Positions 42,885 through 55,413 of a stretch of 64,000 nt of DNA are shown here, piece by piece (the stretch's first letter is position 1; each line of letters starts with the position of its first letter). The notes beneath the pieces were generated by a model. That model had not been told where the DNA came from. It searched no databases and saw nothing but the letters and a program-made list of their open reading frames with translations. This DNA is from Archangium primigenium (GTDB lineage: Bacteria; Myxococcota; Myxococcia; Myxococcales; Myxococcaceae). Where the stretch lies: contig NZ_JADWYI010000001.1 of assembly GCF_016904885.1 (NCBI RefSeq), positions 1,488,001 through 1,552,000 on the forward strand. The letters are read 5' to 3'. Made by a program: the position numbers and the translations under genes.

Positions 42885-42901
42885 TTATGCCATGGGCATA
42901 A
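42885..42901. repeat. Inverted repeat before the oxygenase operon
   Basis: TTATGCC-ATG-GGCATAA is a perfect 7-nt dyad in the 143-nt gap before the MpaB-like gene, 40 nt ahead of its start. The flanking TTTGACC stretch is AT-rich compared with the window; it may be an operator overlapping the promoter. Confidence 0.5.
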
Positions 42902-42940: not shown

Positions 42941-44116
42941 ATGATGAACACACGCTGGACAGATGGGCTTCTCGACCAGATGAGGACAGAGGGGGACCCT
43001 CACGCCGACGCAGTCTACGCCCAGATCCTCGAGAATACCGAGGGGCAGGAGCTCAACCAGCTCTTCAGGACGCTGGCCAACAATCAGGAAGTCCCCCCGG
43101 CCACGACCTTCGCGCCCTTCAATCAGTACTTCGACGAGACCCATGACGTGCCGCAGGACCCTTCCGTGCTGGCGCGCCTCCAGCGGGGCCAGGACGCGTT
43201 CATGCGCCGCGGCCAGGTGGGCGTCATCATCCTGCTGACGAAGGGCCTGCCCACCGGCTACTGCATGCCGTGCCTCACCCAGGTACTGATGATGTCGGAG
43301 GCGCTCAAGAAGCGCCCCTTCCACCGGCTGCTCGGCGTGGCCCAACTCCTGCTCAATGTCTGCTCACCGGGGAGCTTCAAGCCCAAAGGCGCCGCCGTCA
43401 TCACCGCGCAGAAGGTGCGTCTGCTGCACGCGGGCCTGCGTCGTATCGCGGACCAGGTCATACCGGACTACCGCCCTCGCTACGGCGTCGCCGTGAATCA
43501 GGAGGATCTCCTGGCGACGCTGATGGGCTTCTCCCTGCTGGTCATTCAGGGCTTCCGCCAACTCGGCGCTGGGCTCAGTTCTCAGGAGGAGGAGGACTAC
43601 CTCTACCTCTGGAACCAGTACGGCCTCGTCATGGGCATCAAGCCGGAGTACCTGCCCACGGACGTCGAGGACGCCGAGGCCTTCTTCGAGGCCTATGAGC
43701 GGCGCCATGCCGCCCCGCCGGAGCAGAATCCGGACGGTGTCGAACTCGCTCGAGCGCACCTGGACATGTTCACGCGGCTGATGGGCGCCTGGGGCCACCT
43801 GCTGGGCAACGACATCGTCCCGCTCATGTACCTCAACCACCTCATGGGACCCGAGCGCTGCGAGCGCCTGACCTACCCCATGGTTGAGGGACACGAAGTG
43901 CTCAAGCTCCTCCTGCACCGGCTCCCGCCGAATCCCCTTCGGCACCTCATCGTGCTCGGCCAGCTCGACCGCATCGTGCACGAGCAACTCGCCGAGGACA
44001 TCGTCCAGAAGCTCATCAGCGACAACTACAGCGGCCGCCCAAGCTTCTGGATGCCCATGGACCTGGACAATCTGCGCTCGCTGGTCAACGCCGCGGCCGT
44101 CCTGGCCAAGGCGTAG
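42941..44116 (+). CDS. MpaB/Lcp-type heme oxygenase (DUF2236 family)
   Basis: 391 residues. No good Shine-Dalgarno precedes ATG 42941 or the adjacent ATG 42944. The DUF2236 core is clear: AQKVRLLHAGLRR with the expected heme-ligand His163, then YGVAVNQEDLLATLMGFS and VIQGFRQLGAGLSSQEEEDYLYLWNQYGLVMGI. Two cysteines near 108-111 (CMPC) could bind metal or form a disulfide. Relatives are the rubber oxygenase Lcp, which cleaves polyisoprene, and fungal MpaB', which cleaves a farnesyl chain. I infer oxidative cleavage of an isoprenoid side chain. First of three closely packed genes; GC content slightly lower than in surrounding genes. Confidence 0.87.
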   Translation: MMNTRWTDGLLDQMRTEGDPHADAVYAQILENTEGQELNQLFRTLANNQEVPPATTFAPFNQYFDETHDVPQDPSVLARLQRGQDAFMRRGQVGVIILLTKGLPTGYCMPCLTQVLMMSEALKKRPFHRLLGVAQLLLNVCSPGSFKPKGAAVITAQKVRLLHAGLRRIADQVIPDYRPRYGVAVNQEDLLATLMGFSLLVIQGFRQLGAGLSSQEEEDYLYLWNQYGLVMGIKPEYLPTDVEDAEAFFEAYERRHAAPPEQNPDGVELARAHLDMFTRLMGAWGHLLGNDIVPLMYLNHLMGPERCERLTYPMVEGHEVLKLLLHRLPPNPLRHLIVLGQLDRIVHEQLAEDIVQKLISDNYSGRPSFWMPMDLDNLRSLVNAAAVLAKA

Positions 44117-44153
44117 GGCGGACACGGACCGCGTTCCAACAGAGATACCTGCC

Positions 44154-44843
44154 ATGCTCGAGCACATCCTCAATCTCAAGGACTACACCCCCACCGAGTT
44201 GTTCTTCTTCGTCGGAGGCTGCTCCCTCTGGGTGGTCGTCTACATCATCTACATCCGAAACCTCGCGCGCCTGAAGTTCGCCGAGGCACCCCTCTTCGGT
44301 ACCTGCGCGAACTTCGGTTGGGAATTCACCTGGGGAATGCTCTGCAAGACCGACATGGGCTTGCTCTTGCAGTGGTGTTACCGGATCTGGTTCTTGCTCG
44401 ACCTCTACATCTTCTCCAGGGTGGTCCGCTTCGGAAAGGACCAGGTCCAGACGGCGGCGGTGCGCAGGTATTACGTCCCCGTCATGCTGGCCACTGCGGT
44501 CGCCTGGGCCGTGGGGGTCTACTGCATGGTGAAGTCAGGGCTCGACACCCCCATCGGTGCGACCTCGGCGTACCTCAACAATCTCGCGCTCTCCGTTACG
44601 TACCTGTTGGTCATGCTCCGGCGCGAGAGCGTCGCGGGGTACTCCCTCACCGTGGCGTTTTGCAAGATGATCGGGACGGGGATGAACACCGTCTTCATGA
44701 ACATCCACGCCGCCTACGCGCACAACTACTTCCTCCATTTCATCTCGATCCTCACCACCAGCATCGACTGCCTGTACATCTACGCCCTGTGGAGACGGAT
44801 GCGCGTCCCCAGTGTGGCGCTCGGTGCGGAGACAGCGACGTAG
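44154..44843 (+). CDS. Seven-TM protein resembling transmembrane terpene cyclases (PaxB/Pyr4 type)
   Basis: 229 residues from ATG 44154, almost entirely hydrophobic with about seven TM helices; the size fits the 230-245 residue Pyr4/PaxB/AtmB cyclases. Two acidic positions match that family's catalytic pair (Glu63 and Asp218 in Pyr4): Glu57 in CANFGWEFTWG and Asp205 in LTTSIDCLYIYAL. Pyr4-type enzymes protonate an epoxide or double bond to cyclise a prenyl chain of meroterpenoids in the membrane. The family call rests on length, topology and these two motifs. A different small 7-TM family remains possible. It begins 37 nt after the oxygenase stop and ends 3 nt before the hybrid kinase. Confidence 0.55.
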   Translation: MLEHILNLKDYTPTELFFFVGGCSLWVVVYIIYIRNLARLKFAEAPLFGTCANFGWEFTWGMLCKTDMGLLLQWCYRIWFLLDLYIFSRVVRFGKDQVQTAAVRRYYVPVMLATAVAWAVGVYCMVKSGLDTPIGATSAYLNNLALSVTYLLVMLRRESVAGYSLTVAFCKMIGTGMNTVFMNIHAAYAHNYFLHFISILTTSIDCLYIYALWRRMRVPSVALGAETAT

Positions 44844-44846
44844 GCC

Positions 44847-47800
44847 ATGGCTCAAAGGGCACTCTCCAACTGGGACACGCTGACATCGGCCGGGTTTGTC
44901 GCGTTGGAGTACCTGTCCGGAGATGAATCGAGCGCGCTGCTGCGCGCCCGCCGGCAGGGTTCTGACACGCCCGCGCTGCTCCAAGTGCTGTGCGCCGAGT
45001 CGCCCTCGGAGGAAGAGCGCGAGCGCCTCCAATACGACTTCGAGCTTTCGTGCATCCTCGCGGGTCAGCACGTCCTCCAGCCACTCGAGCGCCTGGCGGG
45101 TGGACGGGCCATCCTCTACGGGTCCGTTGAAGGAGTGCCGCTCCACGCCTTCGCGAGGACGGCCAGCGCGGACCTCGCCGCGCTCCTCCGTGTCGCGCTC
45201 TCCTTGGTGGACGCACTCGCCGCCATCCATGCGCGGGGATTCATCCATTGTCGCCTGGAGCCGCGCCACGTGCTCGTCGCGCCCGCGACCTCGGCGGTGA
45301 AGCTCGTGGGCTTTGGCGCCGCTTTGCGCCTGTCGCAAGAGACTCCCTCGCCGGACGCGACCGGGTTGAGGGGTACGCTCACCTACATCGCGCCGGAGCA
45401 GACCGGCAGGATGAACCGGAGCGTCGACCATCGCAGCGACTTCTACTCGCTGGGAGTGCTCCTCTACGAGCTCTTCGTCGGCGAGCCGCCATTCGTCGCG
45501 CGGGATCCGTTGGAACTCGTGCATGCGCACTTTGCGCGCCGTCCGCGGCCCCCGCACGAGGTGGCGCAGAGCGTGCCGCTCGCCCTGTCCAGCGTCGTGC
45601 TCAAGCTGCTCGCCAAGGACGCCGAGGAGCGCTACCAGAGTCACCTCGGCCTGCGCGCGGACCTCTCCTCCTGCCTCGCGGCGCTCACGGGGGGCGAGCC
45701 CCTCCGTGACTTCACCCCAGGCCTCCAGGATGTCGTGGCGCGCTTCCACATCCCACAGCGGCTCTATGGCCGGGAGCGCGAAGTGGAGGTGTTGCTCGCC
45801 GCGTGCGAGCGCGTGGGGTCGGGGACCACCGAGGTCGTCTCTGTCGCGGGGTATGCGGGAATCGGCAAGTCGGCGCTGGTGCGCGAACTGCGTCGGCCTG
45901 TCGCGGCGCGGGGCGGCTATTTCGTTAGTGGCAAGTTCGATCAGCTCCGTCGTGGCACCCCGTACTCGGCGCTCCTCGAGGCGCTCCGAGACCTCACCCG
46001 ACAGGTGCTCACGGAGCACGAGGATGCGCTCGCTGCATGGCGCGCATGCCTGCACGACGCGATCGGCGACAGTGGACGCTTGCTGACGGACATCGCGCCG
46101 GAGGTGGAAGCACTCCTCGGGCTGCAGCCTCCCGTCCAGAACCAGCCCCCCGTGGAGGCGCAAAACCGTTTCAACCGCGTGCTCGGAGCATTCATTGGCG
46201 CGTTCTGCCGTCCCGGGCGCCCGCTCGCGCTCTTCTTGGACGATCTGCAATGGGCCGATGCGGCGTCGCTCGACTTCCTCGAGCAGTTCATCGCGCAGCG
46301 CCACACCCATAACCTGCTCCTTGTCGCGGCTTTCCGCGACAATGAGGTCGACGCCGCTCACCCACTGGCGGGCGTGTTCGAGACGTTCCGCGACGCGGGC
46401 GTCCCGCTTCTGCGGGTGGAACTCGCGCCGCTTGATATGGCGCCGGTGACGCGGCTCGTCGCCGACACGGTCCACGCGGTCCCCGAGCAGTGCGCCGAGC
46501 TGGCCGAGTTGGCACAGGCGAAGACGGGCGGCAATCCCTTCTTCGTCATCGAGTTCCTGAAGACGCTGCATCAGGAGGGTGCGCTCACCTTCGACGCCGT
46601 CGCGGGCCGCTTCCGGTGGGACCTTGCCGCCATCGGTGCCATGCAGGTGACCGACAATGTGGTCGACCTGGTGTGCCGCAGAATGGCCCGCCTCTCAGAG
46701 GCGACACGTGAGGTGCTCAAGCAAGCCGCGTGCATCGACAACACGTTCGACCTGGAGACGCTCGGCATCGCCTGTTCCCGGCTTCCGGCCGAACTGCTCC
46801 CGGCGCTCCGGGAGGCGGTGGAGGCGGGTCTCCTGCAGTCCGTGGGTAATTCCTTCCCCTCCGTTTCTGAGGGCGCCAACCTGGGGGCCGCGCGGTACCA
46901 GTTCCTGCATGACCGTGTCCAGCAGGCGGCCTACTCGCTCATCCCCGAGGAAGCTCGCGCGGCCACTCACCTGCGCATCGGGCGGCGACTGCGTGGTGGA
47001 CAGGCCGATGACGCGTTCGGCGAGCGACTTTTCGACGTCGTGGACCACCTCGACCGAGGCCGGGCGCTCATCATCGACTCAGAAGAGCGCCTTGGCCTCG
47101 TGCGCCTCAACCTGCACGCGGGACTCAAGGCCAAGGCCTCGGTCGCCTTCGCGCCGGCATACCGCTATCTGGACGTCGGTCTCGAACTGCTCGGTGCGCG
47201 GCGCTGGGAACATCCCGAGCTCGCGGCGGTGCTCCTCCAAGAGCGGGGCGAGTGCGGCGCCCTGACCGCCCAGTTCGCCCAGGCTGAATGCGACTTCGAT
47301 GAACTCCTCGCACATGTGCGCCTGCCCCTGGAGCGCGCACGTGTCTACGATGCCAAACTCCGGATGCATGTGCGTCACGGCCAGATGGAGCAGGCGGTCA
47401 GCGCGGGGCTCGCGGCGCTCAAGTTCCTCGGCGTGCACCTCGTTCCGAAGCCCACGATGGCGGCTGTCTCCGCGGAGATGCTGAAGGTCCGGTGGCTGAT
47501 GCGCAAGACGCGCATCCAGGAGTTGCCCGAACTCGGTACCATCACTCGGCCCGAGTCGGCGCTCACGCTGCGCGTGATGCTCACAATGAGCACCCCTGCC
47601 TACTACTCCAGCCAGAACCTGCTCGCGCTCGTGATCTTGAAGGGCATGGGGATCACTCTTCGGCACGGCAACTCGGTGGACAGCTGCGGCCTCTACGGGC
47701 CCTTCGGCCTTCTTCTTGTCGAGGGATTTGGCGCCTACGAGGATGGCTATGAGCTTGGACAGGCGAGCATTCGTCTCGCCGAGTCGATGGGCAGTACCCT

Positions 47801-50198
47801 GGCTTTGGGGCGCGCGCAGTTCTCGGCTGCGGCTACGCTGCACCACTGGCGCGCGCCGCTTCGTGAGAACGTCACGCTCCTGAACGCCGCCTGTCGCAAC
47901 TGCCTGGACGTGGGCGATCAGTCCTACGCGACCTGGTGCTACCAGTTTCTCACCAGCATCCGCTTCTCGCTCGGAGACTCACTCGAAGAACTCCGCAAAG
48001 TCATCGGTGATTGGATGAACACCGTGCGCCGGTGGGGGTGGAACGAGTATGCCCTCACCCTGGCCGCGTACATCGGCTTCTTGCGGTGCTTGATGGGCGA
48101 GTCTCCAATGTCAACGCGCTTCGAGGGAGACGGCTTCGACGAAGATGCCTACCGCATCAACCGCGAAGCGCCCCATAACAGCGTTTTGCGCGCCTTCTAC
48201 CCGCTCTTGAAGTTGCAGGCGTGCTACCTGGCTGATGACCGCGAAGGCGCGCTTGCCTCCGCTCATGACGCCGTCGAGACCCAGGGTGGCGTTCTCGGCC
48301 AGTACGTCGTTGCGGATTATCACTTCTACGCGGCCCTCACGCGCGCCGGGCTCCTCGTCGACGCGCGTGGCACCGAGCGTGTCGAGCTGCGCATCGCCAT
48401 TGAAAAGCACCTCTTCAAGCTGCGTGGCTGGGTGAAGGGCTGCCCCGAGAACTTCCTCCACAAGCAGGAACTCGTCGAAGCGGAGCTGGCGCGCGCGCTC
48501 GGCAAGCCGGATCGGGCCGCCACGATGTACGAGCGCGCCCAGCGCTCCGCGCGCGCGGCGGGCTTCCCTCACATTGAGGCGCTCGCCCACGAACTCGCGG
48601 GTCGCTTTCACCTCGCCGCTGGACGTGAGCGCATCGCCGCCGACCACCTGCACAGCGCGCGTGACGGCTACGCGCGCTGGGGCGCACGGGCGAAAGTGCG
48701 GGCACTCGAAATCGCTCACCCTGCCGTCTTTCCGGCGGAGTCCTCGGGTGCGACGGTGCGGCGCGATCCGAGCGCCCAGGCGCACCTCGCCTCCACGGAG
48801 GCGCTTGACCTCGCCGCGGTCACCCGGGCCGCGCAGGCCATCTCCGGTGAGATCCAGCTTGGCAACCTCCTCCAGAACCTCATGCGGCTGGTCGTGGAGA
48901 GCGCGGGCGCCGAGCGGGCCTTTCTCCTCCTGCCCAAGGCCCACGCGCTGGTCATCGAGGCCGCGATCGACGGCGACACGGTGACCATCCAGCCCCAGAC
49001 GCCGCTCGACACGCAGGAGGAACTCTCGACCGCCATCCTGCACTACGTGGCCCGCGCGCGCGCGCCGGTGGTCCTCGCGGACGCCGCCGCCGAGGGTTCT
49101 TTCACCGAGGACCCCTACGTGCGGCGCCGACGGCCCCGGTCCCTCTTGTGTGCGCCGCTGCTCAAGCAGGGCACGCTTGTGGGCGTGCTCTATCTGGAGA
49201 ACAACGCGGTGCCGGGCGCCTTCACCCCCGCGCGCCTTGAAGTGCTCCAAATGCTCTCGTCCCAAGCGGCCATCTCCATCGAGAACGCGCTCCTGTACCA
49301 GGACCTCGCTGAGCACAGCCAGACCCTGGAGACGAAGGTCACCGCCCGCACCGCCGAGCTCTCGGCCAAGAACGCCGAGCTTGGCGCCACGCTCGCGCGC
49401 TTGCGAGAGACCCAGGCGCAGCTTGTCGCGCAGGAGAAGCTCGCGTCGCTGGGCGCGCTCATGGCCGGCATCGCCCACGAGCTGAAGAACCCGCTGAACT
49501 TCATCAACAACTTCGCCGAACTCTCGACGGAGCTCGCGGACGAGCTCGCCCAGGAACTCGAGCCGGTGCGCGCGCAGCTCGGCGACGAGGCGCGGAGCGC
49601 CCTCGCAAATCTGTGCAAGAACGCCACTGCCATCCGCGTCCATGGTCAGCGCGCCGACGGCATCATCACCACCATGCTGCAGCACTCCTGGGGCGCGGGG
49701 GGTGACCGCGCCCATGCCGACCTGAACGCGTTGGTGGCGGAGACGGTGAAGCTCACGACCCTCGACCTGCGCGACCGGAGGCCGGGCCTCGACCTGACGC
49801 TCACCGAGGACTATGACCCGGCGGTGGGGATGCAGATGTTCGTCGTCAGCGAGCTCACACGGGTGTTCATCAACCTCGTCGACAACGCGCTCTACGCGAT
49901 GGCCGCGCGGCACCACACCGGGGAGCCGGGCTACCGTCCGGAACTCACCGTGCGCACGCAGCGGGTGGACGGGCGCGTCCTGGTGCGCATCCGCGACAAT
50001 GGCACCGGCATCCCCGCGGACATCGTGGAGCGGATCTTCAATCCCTTCTTCACGACCAAATCGCCGGGCGAGGGCACGGGGCTCGGCCTCTCCATCAGCT
50101 ACGACATCGTGAAGCGCCACCAGGGCGAGCTGCGCGTCGCCTCGGTGCCCGGTCAGTTCACCGAGTTCCTCATCACGCTGCCGACGCCCGCCGCTTGA
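44847..50198 (+). CDS. Giant hybrid sensor: pseudokinase, AAA ATPase, TPR-like region, GAF, histidine kinase
   Basis: 1783 residues, the trifunctional kinase/ATPase/histidine-kinase layout. Residues 1-275: a kinase fold that lacks its catalytic residues (HRDLKPxN is HCRLEPRH near 134, DFG is GFG, and the VAIK lysine seems absent), although [10 protein letters not shown] is kept. About 305-650: AAA ATPase with RLYGRE, Walker [11 protein letters not shown] near 335 and Walker [13 protein letters not shown]. About 700-1300: TPR-like helices. About 1320-1480: GAF. A coiled coil precedes HisKA ([11 protein letters not shown], His1544) and HATPase with [22 protein letters not shown]. Starts 3 nt after the 7-TM gene; no response regulator nearby. 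Its role as sensor for the oxygenase/cyclase pair is inferred. Confidence 0.9.
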
Positions 50199-50800: not shown

Positions 50801-52144
50801 TCAACCGCGGCGCTGCTCGATGATGCGGGTGAAGGAGCGCTCGTGCAGCTCCGCCACCGTCAGGTCCGTGGCGCGGACCTCCTCGGCAGTGATAGCGCCA
50901 CACGCGAGCCCGCGCAGGAAGGAATTGAGCAGCCCCTGTCCCGTGGCGGCGTCATCGAACACTCCGCCCAGGCGCGTGGCCTGGGCCGCCTGGGCCACGA
51001 AGGACTTGAGCCGCAGCGTGGCGGCCTCCAGGCCCTCCAGGAAGAAGGCGTACACGCTCGCGTAGCGGATGGGGAGCTGGGCCGGGTGCAGGTCCCACCC
51101 CTGGTAGAAGCCCCGCGCGAGCGCATGGCGGACGTTGGCGTGCATCAGCCGCCACGCGCGGTGCACGGCCTGGCGGTTCTTCTCGCGCTGGGCCTCCGTG
51201 AGGGGCGCCTCGCCCGGCTTGTGGGGGCCCACGGGCAAGAGGCTCGTGGGGCCGTCCACCAGCGCCAGGCCCCGGCCCGCAAGCGCCACCTGCATCACGT
51301 CCCGGGCGAAGTCGCACGCCGGGTGGGTGAGCCGCTGGTGCTCGGCGGTGATGTCCATGCTGGCCGTGTAGTCGTAGGGGCCCAGGTGCACGCCCACGCA
51401 CCGGCCCCGGGCCGCCTCCACCAGCGCGGGCAGCACCAGCCGTCCGTCCGGGCCGTACAGCGCGTGGGACGACTCCACCATCAGCTCCACCTGGATGCTG
51501 CCCGGGCGCAGGCCGTGGTGCGTCTCCACGAGCTCGAGCAGGTGCGCCAGGGCGGCGGGCTCCTCGGGCGTGGTCACCTTGGGCAGGGTGACGATGAAGG
51601 GCTGGGGCAGCCGGCCCCCGGTGGTGGCGATGAGCGTGGTGAAGAACCGGTCCAGGGTGCGGGTGCTCCGCTCGAAGCGCGCCGGGTGCAGGGGCTTCAC
51701 GCGGATGCCGAGGAAGGGCGGCAGGCCGCCGTCGGACAGTCCCCGGGCCACCTCGCGCGCGGCGGCCTCGGCGTGGGAGTCCTCCTCCGCGTCCGTCCGA
51801 GGGCCATAGCCGTCCTCGAAGTCGATGCGGAGGTCCTCCACGGGCTCGTGCCGCAGCTTGGCGACGACCCGGGCGTGGACCCGCGCGGCGAGGGCCTCGT
51901 CCAGTTCCAGGCACTGGGCGAGCGCGTGCGGATCCGGCGCGTACGTGCTCATGGCCTCCAGGGCGCGCTGGCCCATCTTGCGCGCCGTGTCCGCCTTGAA
52001 CAGGTGGGCCCCGCCGTACAGCGTGTGCACGGGCTGGCGGCCCGGCACGGTGTGGGGCGTGTGCCGGGCGAGCTCCCGGTGGGCATGCTCCAGGGTCGCC
52101 CGGACGGTGGCGAGGTGCGTGGGGCCGAAGGCGGGGCTCGTCAT
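50801..52144 (-). CDS. DUF6986 family protein (HpcH/HpaI aldolase-like)
   Basis: 447 residues, no signal peptide. A TIM-barrel fold of the HpcH/HpaI or malate-synthase-like type is suggested by DLRIDFEDGYGPRTDAEED near 110 (metal-binding acids), FIVTLPKVTTPEE, IQVELMVESSHAL near 222 and HLGPYDYTASM near 255. In actinobacteria this family occurs beside allantoin and malate-synthase genes, and the neighbours here are uraH and uraD. I infer a role in handling glyoxylate or another two-carbon product from ureide breakdown. Gap to uraH is 10 nt, so the operon is continuous. Confidence 0.72.
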   Translation of the reverse strand: MTSPAFGPTHLATVRATLEHAHRELARHTPHTVPGRQPVHTLYGGAHLFKADTARKMGQRALEAMSTYAPDPHALAQCLELDEALAARVHARVVAKLRHEPVEDLRIDFEDGYGPRTDAEEDSHAEAAAREVARGLSDGGLPPFLGIRVKPLHPARFERSTRTLDRFFTTLIATTGGRLPQPFIVTLPKVTTPEEPAALAHLLELVETHHGLRPGSIQVELMVESSHALYGPDGRLVLPALVEAARGRCVGVHLGPYDYTASMDITAEHQRLTHPACDFARDVMQVALAGRGLALVDGPTSLLPVGPHKPGEAPLTEAQREKNRQAVHRAWRLMHANVRHALARGFYQGWDLHPAQLPIRYASVYAFFLEGLEAATLRLKSFVAQAAQATRLGGVFDDAATGQGLLNSFLRGLACGAITAEEVRATDLTVAELHERSFTRIIEQRRG

Positions 52145-52154
52145 GGCGGGGGCC

Positions 52155-52496
52155 TCAGCTTCCCCGGTAAGTGGAGTAGCCGAAGGGGCTGAGCAGCAGG
52201 GGCACGTGGTAGTGCTCCTCGGGCGCGGCGAGCTCGAACACCACGGCGACGTACGGGTAGAAGCCCTTCGTTTGCTGGGCCCGGAAGTACTCGGCGGTGT
52301 GGAACGTCATCCGGTAGATGCCGGGCTCCAGGCGCGTGCTGGCCGGGAGGAAGTCGCGCACGCGGCCGTCCGGGTTGGTGGTGCCCCGGGCCAGCTCCCG
52401 CCAGCCGTCGGCGGCCTGGTGCTCCAGGGTGATGGGGACGCCCGCGGCGGGGCGGCCCCACTGCGTGTCGAGGACGTGGGTGGACAGGGTGCTCAT
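52155..52496 (-). CDS. uraH: 5-hydroxyisourate hydrolase (transthyretin-like)
   Basis: 113 residues from ATG 52496, the canonical size. Signature motifs are complete: STHVLDTQWGRPAAGVPI near 5-20, the active-site region PEEHYHVPLLLSP, and the C-terminal YRGS. The enzyme opens 5-hydroxyisourate to OHCU in urate breakdown. The start overlaps the uraD stop by 4 nt (ATGA), so the two are translationally coupled in the order uraD-uraH. Confidence 0.97.
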   Translation of the reverse strand: MSTLSTHVLDTQWGRPAAGVPITLEHQAADGWRELARGTTNPDGRVRDFLPASTRLEPGIYRMTFHTAEYFRAQQTKGFYPYVAVVFELAAPEEHYHVPLLLSPFGYSTYRGS

Positions 52497-53002
52497 GGCG
52501 CGAGGAGCTTCTCCAGTCGGATGCGGGTGATTTTCGCCTGCTCGCCCGCCGCGATGCGCAGCTCCTGCTCGGGCGGGTTGTCCAGCCGCGCGCGCAACAG
52601 GCCGAGCATCTCCCCGGCGCTCTTGCCCGTGGCGCACACGAGGAAGATGAAGCCGAAGCGCGCCTCGTAGTCGCGGTTGCCGTCGGCGAGCGCTTGAATG
52701 ACGTCCTCGCCCGCGCCCTGCATGCCGCGCTGCTCCTGCTCGCTCCAGGCCCCGGTGGCCTTGTACTTCTCGCGCAGCCGCGACACGTCGCCGATGCGCG
52801 GGTGGTGCTCCATCGCCTCGCGCCACTCAGCGGGCCCCGTGGCGGCCCAGTGCGCGTCGGCCTGCTGGTACAGCGCGGCGTCGCTCGCGAAGGGCCGCGC
52901 CCGGGCCATGGCCTCGGCCCAGGTGCGCACGCCACAGCAGCGCAGGAACTCCGCCCGGGCCTCCTCGGCGGACAGCCCGTTGAGCCACGCGAGCCGGCTC
53001 AC
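52493..53002 (-). CDS. uraD: OHCU decarboxylase
   Basis: 169 residues from GTG 53002, which overlaps the allantoicase stop by 4 nt. Active-site hallmarks are HHPRIGD near 69 (catalytic His), SEQEQRGM near 90, and the helix NRDYEARFGFIFLVCATGKSA near 115-135, all typical of UraD. It decarboxylates 2-oxo-4-hydroxy-4-carboxy-5-ureidoimidazoline to S-allantoin, preventing racemic product. It works in tandem with uraH, which it overlaps. Confidence 0.96.
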   Translation of the reverse strand: MSRLAWLNGLSAEEARAEFLRCCGVRTWAEAMARARPFASDAALYQQADAHWAATGPAEWREAMEHHPRIGDVSRLREKYKATGAWSEQEQRGMQGAGEDVIQALADGNRDYEARFGFIFLVCATGKSAGEMLGLLRARLDNPPEQELRIAAGEQAKITRIRLEKLLAP

Positions 53003-54021
53003 GCGACCCGCCCGTTCACCCGCAGGCGGCTGATGCCTCCGTCCGGGAAGATGTTGAGCCGCACGTGGGTGAAGGGGCCCCGGGCACGCAGCGCCTCGCC
53101 CTCGAAGTGGTGTTGATGGCTCGCCTGGAGCTTCGTCTTGGGGAGGATCTCCGTCCACGCGATGTCGCGCGCGTTGGCGAAGTCGAGCACCTCCTCGGTG
53201 AGGGTGCAGCCCTCCAGCGAGCACATGTCGGGGAAGTTGCCCTTGAAGTGGTTGGTGTCCACCTCCAGGTGCTCGATGTGGCCGGGCACGGCGAGCTTCA
53301 CGACGATCCAGTCGAAGCCCGGCACGCGCTTGCGGCGCGTCTCCCAACCGTCACCCATGGTGGCCGCGCGACCGGGGAGGATGAGGTTGTCCTTGGGGCC
53401 GAAGAAGGAGTCGTTGCAGGTGACGACGGTGCCGCCGTTCTCCGCCGCCGCCAGGTCCACGCGCTGGCCCGCGCGCAGCTTCACCAGGTCTGGCCGCACC
53501 ACGCCGTGCACCTTGAAGCGCGCCACGCCGCCGTCCGGGAAGATGTTGAGCCGCAGGTGCGTCCAGCGCTGCTCGCTGCCCACGGGGATGTAGTTCTGCG
53601 TGCCGCCCACGAGCCTGGTGCGCGGGACGATGGGCGTCCACGTGGCGCCGAGCAGCGAGTCCACCGTCACGTCCCCGTGGACCTCCAGGGCATCCACCGA
53701 GGCGTACTCGGGGAAGTTGCCGAGGAAGTGGTTGGTGTCCACGTTCACGCCGCGGATGGTGCCCGGCAGGCCGAGCTGGAGGATGCAGAAGTCATGGCCC
53801 GGCAGCGCGCGCTTGCGGCGCGTCTCCCAGCCGTCCATCCACTTGCCGAACTCCGTGTACTTGTCCGGGATGAAGACGCCACGGCCGGGCTTGAGCAGGT
53901 TCTCCTTGCCGGCGAAGAACTCGTCGTTGGCGTACAGGGCGCGGCCACCCACCTTCTCGGCGGCCAGGTCGATGAGCTCGGCGAAGGCGACGCGGACCTT
54001 GCCTTCCTCGGGTGCGTTCAT
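52999..54021 (-). CDS. alc: Allantoicase
   Basis: 340 residues in two internally repeated domains of about 165 residues. Both repeats carry a VDTNHFxGNFP motif (first near 94, second near 260), a WETRRKR motif (near 65 and 223) and an HLRLNIFPDGG or HVRLNIFPDGG motif. It hydrolyses allantoate to ureidoglycolate and urea. The start ATG 54021 lies 30 nt after the allB stop; the stop overlaps uraD by 4 nt. Confidence 0.96.
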   Translation of the reverse strand: MNAPEEGKVRVAFAELIDLAAEKVGGRALYANDEFFAGKENLLKPGRGVFIPDKYTEFGKWMDGWETRRKRALPGHDFCILQLGLPGTIRGVNVDTNHFLGNFPEYASVDALEVHGDVTVDSLLGATWTPIVPRTRLVGGTQNYIPVGSEQRWTHLRLNIFPDGGVARFKVHGVVRPDLVKLRAGQRVDLAAAENGGTVVTCNDSFFGPKDNLILPGRAATMGDGWETRRKRVPGFDWIVVKLAVPGHIEHLEVDTNHFKGNFPDMCSLEGCTLTEEVLDFANARDIAWTEILPKTKLQASHQHHFEGEALRARGPFTHVRLNIFPDGGISRLRVNGRVA

Positions 54022-54051
54022 GGGGTCGGGTTCTCCTTGGGGAGGACTGCT

Positions 54052-55413
54052 TTATTTCACGGGCCGCGCCGTCTGGGGGCGGCGAATCCATTGGCCGGTG
54101 GGGGCGGGGGCGGGGGCGCCGCGCTCGTGGACCTTCTGGCCGCGCACCCACGTCTGCTCCACCACGCCCACGAGTGGCCGACCGGCGTAGGGGGTGAGCT
54201 TGTGGCGGTGCAGCACGCCCGAGGCGTCCGGGGTGAAGGGGGCGTCCGGGTCGAAGACGAGGAAGTCCGCGTCCGCGCCCGGGGTGAGCGAGCCCTTCTG
54301 GCCCGTGAGGCCGGTGAGCTTCGCGGGGGCGTGGCACATCCAGCGCACGAGCTGCTCCAGCCCGTGGCCGCGCGCGCGCATGCCCGTCCACACCGCGGGC
54401 AGGCTGAACTGGAGCGAGGCGATGCCGCCCCACGCCTTGCCGAAGTCGCCGTGCTCCAGGTGCTTGAGCGCGGGCGTGCAGGGCGAGTGATCCGACACCA
54501 CCATGTCGATGTGGCCGCGCGCGAGGCCCTCCCACAGCCGCTCGCGGTTCTCCGACTCGCGGATGGGCGGGGCGCACTTGAACCAGGTGGCGCCGTCGGG
54601 GATGTGCTCCGCGTCGAAGGTGAGGTAGTGCGGGCACGTCTCCACGGTGAAGGGCAGGCCCTCGGCCTTGGCGGCGGCGATGTCCTTCAGCGCGTCCGAG
54701 GACGACAGGTGCACGATGTGCACGGGGCCCCGGTGCCTGCGGCACAGCTCCACCATCATGCGGATGGCGTCGTCCTCCCACTGGCGCGGGCGCGAGGCGA
54801 GGTAGCTCTGGTAGGTGCGCGTGTCTCCCTCGGGCTGGCCCTCCGCGTCCGTCATCTCCGCGTGGACGATGAGCGGCACGCCCCGGCGCGCGAGCACCGG
54901 CATGGCGCGCTCCAGGTCCTCGCGCGTCACGTGGGGGAACTCGTCCACGCCGGACTGGATGAGGAAGCACTTGAAGCCGGTGACGCCGGCGTCGATCATC
55001 GCCTCCAGCTCGTCCGTGTTGCCGGGGATGACGCCGCCCCAGAAGCCGTGGTCGATGGCGCAGTGGCCCTCGGCGGCGGCGGTCTTGGTGCGCAGCGCCG
55101 CGAGCGACGTGGTGGCGGGAATGGAGTTGAGCGGCATGTCCACCACGGTGGTGATGCCGCCGGCGGCCGCCGCGCGGGTAGCCGTCTCGAAGCCCTCCCA
55201 CTCGGTGCGGCCGGGCTCGTTGATGTGCGCGTGGCTGTCCACCACGCCGGGCATGAGGACCTTGGGGCCCACGTCCGTCACCGGCAGTCCCGAGGGAATC
55301 TCCGTGGGGCCCACCACCGCGGCCACCTTGCCGCCGCGCACCACCACCGCCGCGGGGCGCACGCCCGTGTCCGTCACGACGCGCTCGCCGCGCAGCACCT
55401 GGTCCTGGCTCAT
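54052..55413 (-). CDS. allB: Allantoinase
   Basis: 453 residues. Amidohydrolase metal site: VVDSHAHINEPGRTEWEGF near 58-76 gives the first two His, GVTGFKCFL near 150 holds the carbamylated Lys, HAE near 185 and HLSSSDAL near 242 the further ligands, and DHSPC near 315 the Asp. The family-typical GTPGLETM motif is not evident in this copy, but overall length and motif spacing fit AllB. It opens S-allantoin to allantoate. The start overlaps the FAD-monooxygenase stop by 4 nt. Confidence 0.95.
   Translation of the reverse strand: MSQDQVLRGERVVTDTGVRPAAVVVRGGKVAAVVGPTEIPSGLPVTDVGPKVLMPGVVDSHAHINEPGRTEWEGFETATRAAAAGGITTVVDMPLNSIPATTSLAALRTKTAAAEGHCAIDHGFWGGVIPGNTDELEAMIDAGVTGFKCFLIQSGVDEFPHVTREDLERAMPVLARRGVPLIVHAEMTDAEGQPEGDTRTYQSYLASRPRQWEDDAIRMMVELCRRHRGPVHIVHLSSSDALKDIAAAKAEGLPFTVETCPHYLTFDAEHIPDGATWFKCAPPIRESENRERLWEGLARGHIDMVVSDHSPCTPALKHLEHGDFGKAWGGIASLQFSLPAVWTGMRARGHGLEQLVRWMCHAPAKLTGLTGQKGSLTPGADADFLVFDPDAPFTPDASGVLHRHKLTPYAGRPLVGVVEQTWVRGQKVHERGAPAPAPTGQWIRRPQTARPVK

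Follow-up and report, generated by a model that had tools for sequence, protein, structure and literature searches.

A recurring trio of MpaB-type, Pyr4-like and AAA_16 giant genes in Archangium primigenium and its relatives, with a possible role in isoprenoid-linked signalling

In Archangium primigenium, three adjacent genes encode an MpaB/Lcp-type haem protein, a homologue of the Pyr4-type seven-transmembrane (7-TM) terpene cyclases and a giant signal transducer with an AAA_16 domain, and this trio recurs in relatives in which the giant carries other output domains. The locus lies in a stretch of 64,000 nucleotides (nt) of contig NZ_JADWYI010000001.1 (positions 1,488,001 to 1,552,000; hereafter the window), where the three genes share one strand, with gaps of 37 nt between genes 1 and 2 and 3 nt between genes 2 and 3:

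42941-44116, + strand: gene 1, MpaB/Lcp-type haem protein, 391 amino acids (aa); PF09995 MPAB_Lcp_cat, E 2.5e-17, 64.2 bits against a cut-off of 23
44154-44843, + strand: gene 2, Pyr4-type 7-TM terpene cyclase homologue, 229 aa; PF25129 Pyr4-TMTC, E 5.6e-20, 72.4 bits against a cut-off of 27
44847-50198, + strand: gene 3, giant transducer, 1783 aa; Pfam Pkinase, AAA_16, GAF, HisKA and HATPase_c

The coordinates agree with the arrangement described in a first-pass annotation of this DNA, and Pfam bore out its family assignments (MpaB/Lcp, Pyr4-type cyclase-like and giant kinase), the terpene cyclase homology of the 7-TM protein among them. Genes 1 and 2 are of enzyme kinds known for cutting or folding isoprenoid chains, and we tentatively read the operon as a signalling module with an isoprenoid-processing pair at its centre, wired to a signal transducer. 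No description of a trio of MpaB, Pyr4 and giant was found among the open-licence literature listings examined, and its recurrence with varied outputs in distant relatives hints at an undescribed form of terpenoid sensing or signalling.

Recurrence and linkage of the trio

Within the window's phylum, 10 of 195 genomes had a PF25129 match, as did 21 of 377 in the phylum of a Polyangiaceae metagenome-assembled genome (MAG), 2 of 386 in that of a cyanobacterial MAG and 11 of 396 in that of a Rubrobacter MAG (two of them under the cut-off); none of 14 well-known control genomes had one. Before tree building we dropped copies (L142 of L053, L116 of L052, L047 of L024, L049 of L021, L051 of L022, L055 of L101, L048 and L057 of L110, and L050 of L108), fragments (L106 and L107), actinobacterial matches under the cut-off (L146 and L147) and a spurious Clostridium match of 52 aa (L056). 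The Pyr4 tree of 48 rows split (100/99) into clade I, with 17 rows, and clade II, with 31. Most neighbouring open reading frames (ORFs) were typed by home-made profiles, and Pfam was applied to a selection. Neither MpaB nor an AAA_16 giant was seen in the neighbouring DNA of any clade I row, some of these contigs being short. Clade II had MpaB in 19 rows, a giant in 17 and at least one of the two in 24; all three families, on whose co-occurrence in related genomes the first-pass proposal had turned, stand together in 12 of the 31 rows. One of the 19 MpaB rows comes from the phylum of the Rubrobacter MAG, where MpaB overlaps Pyr4 and no giant is present.

The trio occurs in several gene orders. 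MpaB, Pyr4 and the giant follow one another in the window and in L090; the giant precedes MpaB and Pyr4 in L016, L018, L019 and L023; the giant is convergent with the pair in L050/L108, L088, L091 and L092; and MpaB is divergent from the cyclase giant and Pyr4 in L022 and L104.

Loci with both MpaB and Pyr4 were compared with a control consisting of the 20 best-scoring MpaB matches without Pyr4 from the window's family (11 to 16 kb of DNA each, a 3-kb contig, G083:C1101, being left out). A giant was present at 12 of the 19 pair loci versus 0 of the 20 control loci, which were chosen by score and not at random (Fisher P value = 1.3e-5). With four syntenic loci collapsed to one, the counts were 9/16 versus 0/20 (P value = 1.2e-4), and for Myxococcia only they were 6/9 versus 0/20. 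The 19 include L096, which has an MpaB fragment beside a Peptidase_S37 gene; an intact MpaB neighbour was rejected there, and the tree tally counts this locus as partnerless. Two loci stand in neither count, namely, L109, which holds MpaB and a giant of a Baikal MAG with no Pyr4 on the contig, and L114, the third MpaB gene of the window genome, which has no AAA_16 giant. The giant goes with the MpaB-Pyr4 pair and not with MpaB alone, and a mere MpaB-giant association was rejected because of the empty control. When ORFs of at least 100 aa were clustered over all loci (E 1e-15), only the three trio families recurred widely; the other large clusters are shadow ORFs by position, and what remains consists of small syntenic groups and one cluster spanning six loci, with dehydrogenases among its members.

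The window genome (9.5 Mb) has a second Pyr4 homologue (507137-507709), located 3' of an MpaB homologue, and a 1371-aa nucleotidyl cyclase-AAA_16 protein is encoded ahead of this pair. Both Pyr4 genes of the genome sit in trios, and the two giants differ in type and in side. Given 23 AAA_16 matches over the cut-off in open frames longer than 1000 aa, and assuming 7000 to 8000 genes, chance alone would place a giant beside about 0.6% of pairs. Because both Pyr4 genes have MpaB and an adjoining giant, the linkage in this genome is more than chance.

The Pyr4-like and MpaB-type proteins

The gene 2 product carries W26, Y30, N53, W56, E57, D205 and Y208, which are all seven conserved positions important in the cyclase DmtA1 (W29, Y33, N56, W59, E60, D214 and Y217 there; mapped by local spacing, which agrees). 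Changes at these positions of DmtA1 are reported to be harmful, and D94 and E133 are reported in the same paper to occur only in DmtA1-3 (PMC6173783). In the alignment of 49 Pyr4 rows, the first acid is Glu in all 48 rows with a letter there, and the second is Asp in 46 rows and Asn in the remaining three; 21 aligned clade II relatives are 24 to 36% identical to the window protein. One divergent clade II gene (L026:7576-9841), with Asn as the second acid, adjoins a cytochrome P450 gene. Membership in PF25129, the seven positions and their spacing liken gene 2 to Pyr4, XiaH, TylF and DmtA1. Characterized Pyr4-like cyclases, that of the zig cluster and others alike, differ in that they work in biosynthetic clusters, whereas clade II genes have MpaB and signalling giants as neighbours. 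The zig cluster is reported to include a UbiA-like prenyltransferase (PMC13307353). In that study, a filter for nearby terpenoid genes retained only 264 of 1107 bacterial Pyr4-like candidates, so most bacterial candidates fall outside its analysis, and clade II may give part of these remaining candidates a testable context, namely, signalling.

The structure model of the gene 2 product (pLDDT 93.7) has a predicted KDEL-receptor/SWEET fold. Foldseek placed SWEET and KDEL receptor at the top (best E 0.0047 and 0.026, respectively), with a probability of 1.00 and no E below 0.001, and the top 16 rows of VIA-align comprised only KDEL receptor, cystinosin and SWEET structures (Z 14.6 to 9.2; next 6.9), where helical bundles may reach such Z by chance and the coherence of the list weighs more than Z. 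A PDB sequence search with the gene 2 product alone gave no matches, and one with a 34-row profile of the 7-TM protein gave a single weak match (E 0.5). Among the literature listings examined, no paper tied the KDEL-receptor/SWEET (PQ-loop) fold to terpene cyclases.

Some clade I relatives adjoin UbiA or polyprenyl synthase genes, including a UbiA-type prenyltransferase gene in L085 (Pfam, slightly under the cut-off) and in L094, and a histidine kinase gene lies beside clade I Pyr4 in L085 and L086 (Pfam). The clade I stretches concerned are L085:6035-9218 and L094:4158-7501, and L086 and L095 fall in the same ORF clusters.

The gene 1 product resembles Lcp in its PF09995 profile match, in a sequence match (55.9 bits) and in fold, its model matching Lcp structures with TM of 0.67 to 0.71 and E of 1.4e-10 to 3.4e-10 and t-anethole oxygenase more weakly (E 0.003 to 0.005). 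The equivalents of Lcp Arg164 and of the proximal haem ligand His198 are kept (R129 and H163). It differs from Lcp in lacking Glu148, Lys167 and Thr168, which are replaced by Leu, Gly and Val. Over 40 complete MpaB rows, Arg164, Arg195, His198 and Arg202 are kept in every row and Thr168 in 38, the two exceptions being the window protein and its Baikal relative, which are alike at all three positions. Glu148 and Lys167 are also absent from the other MpaB rows, in which position 167 is Glu except for one Asp and one Gln. Thr168 is reported to be present in 99.6% of 495 Lcp homologues, with a T168A variant retaining 2% residual activity (PMC6311187). Because the catalytic Thr of Lcp is missing, Lcp-like chain cleavage by the window MpaB is doubtful on sequence grounds; given the loss of distal haem-pocket residues, haem or prenyl-ligand binding, or an altered chemistry, would be more likely than such cleavage. 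Rubber degradation was considered and rejected, since the equivalents of Glu148, Lys167 and Thr168 are missing. No signal peptide was seen by eye at the N terminus of the gene 1 product.

In the MpaB tree, one well supported clade has Pyr4-linked genes in 16 of its 18 rows, and the window and Baikal rows share an uncertainly placed stem of 1.63 changes per column. Elsewhere, an MpaB-type domain is fused behind a squalene-hopene cyclase (L123:6969-9980, − strand; Pfam), and MpaB takes the equivalent place in ORFs of about 1000 aa in L132:7132-10101 (− strand) and L133:5296-8376 (+ strand), which group with L123 in the tree. In this fusion, MpaB is independently paired with a terpene cyclase; one paper among the literature listings names both families.

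Giant transducers and their outputs

The gene 3 product comprises a Ser/Thr kinase-like domain (residues ~16 to 277), AAA_16 (305 to 493), GAF (1339 to 1478), HisKA (1535 to 1577) and HATPase_c (1669 to 1781), along with a helical region that can be aligned with TPR-bearing relatives and that has no TPR match in the window protein itself. Walker motifs are present, as are the histidine kinase boxes (HELKNP at 1544, NLVDNA at 1676, DNGTG at 1717 and GEGTGLG at 1741), and Pfam found no receiver domain. For the three proteins, no NCBIfam family was over the cut-off among the matches listed (25 of 88 for the giant). Within the Ser/Thr kinase domain, the residues that we take to be the VAIK Lys, the HRD Asp, the loop Lys and Asn and the DFG Asp are all replaced, and the domain looks like a pseudokinase. 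Because the Ser/Thr kinase looks dead and a receiver is absent, the histidine kinase is likely the output of this giant. The first-pass label "hybrid kinase" has to be qualified: in its strict sense it does not fit, as there is no receiver, and the Ser/Thr kinase half is without catalytic residues.

The cyanobacterial dual kinases cbSTKIII and HstK provide the nearest likeness in layout, with an N-terminal Ser/Thr kinase-like domain, GAF and a C-terminal HisKA; gene 3 joins these and HATPase in one chain as an HstK-type protein would, but its catalytic Ser/Thr kinase motifs are degenerate, and it is tied to MpaB and Pyr4. A cyanobacterial Ser/Thr kinase with GAF and cyclase domains is listed alongside the dual kinases in PMC2176072. 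The Ser/Thr kinase domain is also degenerate in L101 (HRD Asp kept) and L098 (DFG Asp kept). Its catalytic residues are intact in three unlinked giants of the window genome and in five linked giants of another type (L108, L088, L090, L091 and L092).

In the Baikal MAG (G199), the gene after Pyr4 encodes a giant that is truncated where the contig stops (L101:2-754), and a second contig carries a giant without a start (L109:9750-14297) that has AAA_16, GAF and cyclase domains, with a zinc dehydrogenase gene behind it and a convergent MpaB-like gene. The last position of the first fragment corresponds to residue 263 of the window protein and the first position of the second to residue 265, leaving one residue between; the two are very likely parts of a single gene, and the trio a single locus.

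The giants share an AAA_16 core and swap their output among histidine kinase, nucleotidyl cyclase and Ser/Thr kinase. The window giant has a histidine kinase, and the same chassis carries a cyclase in L109 and in L098, where the cyclase replaces the histidine kinase and the next gene, running to the contig end, encodes a cNMP-binding Ser/Thr kinase. Cyclase-AAA_16 giants are found in L016, L022 and L104, and Ser/Thr kinase-AAA_16 giants with intact motifs in L050/L108, L088, L090, L091 and L092. In L089, a gene beside the MpaB-Pyr4 pair encodes cyclic-nucleotide-binding, FAD and Fe-S domains in one protein. Pfam shows AAA_16 in 11 of the 17 giants (window, L016, L022, L050/L108, L088, L090, L091, L092, L098, L104 and, via L109, the Baikal MAG); the L099 giant was called by home-made profile only, with Pfam negative on its cut-off ORF.

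Possible function and alternative explanations

In the signalling module that we tentatively favour, the Pyr4-like membrane protein would make, trim or capture an isoprenoid-derived lipid, with the help, in most relatives, of an MpaB-type haem oxygenase whose site is intact. The adjoining AAA_16 giant would read out the lipid or the state of the pair, presumably in physical contact with it, and would relay the signal through an interchangeable output, which may be histidine autophosphorylation in the window and cyclic nucleotide or Ser/Thr phosphorylation in relatives. The substrate and the ligand are presumed isoprenoids, and terpenoid chemistry gains indirect support from the MpaB/squalene-hopene cyclase fusion and from the UbiA genes beside clade I Pyr4. 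As for direction, a constant enzyme pair with a variable output suits an input role for the pair, and we favour such a role because the outputs swap while the pair is kept. Thus, the first-pass interpretation is partly supported: its proposed sensor-linked isoprenoid module is also our best reading, the isoprenoid chemistry is still presumptive, Lcp-like cleavage by the window MpaB is doubtful for want of the Thr, and control of the enzymes by the kinase is only one direction, which output swapping disfavours.

If such a module exists, AAA_16 giants, histidine kinases and nucleotidyl cyclases of socially complex bacteria would be connected with terpene chemistry, and the MpaB and kinase parts could be compared across natural variants, some intact and some degenerate. 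A more daring and in our view unlikely proposal is a new kind of receptor, in which a 7-TM protein of KDEL-receptor/SWEET fold would form or bind an isoprenoid from its haem-protein partner and signal to an AAA_16 giant with exchangeable output. Opsin systems combine an isoprenoid (carotenoid)-cleaving oxygenase, a 7-TM protein and a signal transducer. The proposed receptor might, with similarly low probability, work like an opsin with its carotenoid oxygenase and transducer, a likeness of layout without homology; the window 7-TM protein has a KDEL-receptor/SWEET-like fold, and an AAA_16 giant serves as transducer.

Several observations weigh against a signalling module. Seven of the 31 clade II rows have neither partner (L093, L026, L052, L096, L020, L021 and one L102 gene, the last still 1.3 kb from a giant credited to the second Pyr4 gene of that locus), and 7 of 19 MpaB-Pyr4 loci, or 8 of 20 with the actinobacterial locus, are without a giant. 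Partner labels cluster on the Pyr4 tree (13 changes versus a shuffled mean of 21.4), and therefore the loci are not independent cases; the nonrandom control, mentioned above, and the several contigs that end near genes further limit the comparison. The giants of L018, L019, L023, L102 and L105 rest on home-made profiles; of these, L018 shares 64% identity with L016, to which Pfam was applied, and is itself matched at 94% identity by L019 and at 77% by L023. The window MpaB itself sits on a long branch, and ORF clustering found no prenyl donor gene recurring near clade II loci. Lastly, giants may neighbour enzymes generally, because the three other full-length giant kinases of the window genome also adjoin metabolic genes: L111:7219-14015 has a 4-nt overlap with an acyl-CoA dehydrogenase gene, L112:7604-14724 lies beside genes for a short-chain dehydrogenase and a hydrolase, and L113:6177-13214 lies beside an amidohydrolase gene.

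These metabolic neighbours, like the close same-strand spacing of the three genes, would fit a regulated pathway, in which the giant senses something else through its GAF, AAA_16 or pseudokinase domain and controls how a terpenoid produced by the pair is synthesized or how it acts. This is the direction that the first-pass annotation proposed, but we consider it rather unlikely, as outputs swap while the enzymes are kept, prenyl donors are not recurrent and no response regulator was found among 11 neighbouring window ORFs scanned. It is also rather improbable that the trio is a noncatalytic sensor complex, with the MpaB-like haem protein sensing gas or redox state, the 7-TM protein acting as a receptor of KDEL-receptor fold and the giant as transducer. 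The haem His kept in the window MpaB alongside Val for Thr168 and Gly for Lys167, the reported likening of the Lcp globin fold to globin-coupled sensors (PMC5522427) and the KDEL receptor and SWEET matches of the 7-TM model all speak for such a complex. However, the Pyr4-like protein retains the seven positions important in DmtA1, most MpaB relatives look like enzymes since they have the catalytic Thr, and the nearest folds of the window MpaB are oxygenases.

Characterized bacterial Pyr4-like enzymes are reported to make meroterpenoids (PMC13307353), and some clade I genes have prenyl-related neighbours, which speaks for a small meroterpenoid or terpenoid biosynthetic locus with the kinase as an ordinary neighbour. 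We regard this as very unlikely for the window, because clade II has no recurring biosynthetic neighbour family, the pair repeatedly has a giant next to it and no prenyltransferase was found among 21 further window ORFs scanned; a prenyltransferase-type meroterpenoid cluster was rejected on the same absence, in the scanned ORFs and as a recurrent feature of the loci. A chance neighbourhood, such as an acquired island, is the least credible explanation. The G+C content of the locus (0.666 versus 0.720 in the rest of the window) and the lack of a Pyr4 match in the three other genomes of the genus agree with it, but the trio recurs in divergent genomes and in several gene orders, and none of the control MpaB loci without Pyr4 has a giant. 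Third-position G+C is 0.85 to 0.90 in the locus genes versus 0.91 to 0.98 in six adjacent genes, and acquisition of the locus by transfer may fairly be inferred.

One further feature lies 5' of the trio:

42885..42901, no strand assigned: inverted repeat TTATGCCATGGGCATAA (arms TTATGCC and GGCATAA around ATG), 39 nt 5' of gene 1; candidate operator

No such repeat is expected from shuffles of the window (0 expected). The genome holds one perfect copy and two places with 2 mismatches, and a backwards-pattern control gave 2 per strand. The repeat is a possible operator, and it does not mark a regulon. A scan for sigma-70-type promoters gave 0 sites, a terminator scan gave 3 terminator-like sites versus 3.9 in shuffles and no tRNA was found in the window. 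On the 3' side of the trio, the opposite strand (50801-55413, − strand) carries DUF6986, allantoicase and amidohydrolase genes, which we presume to serve purine breakdown.

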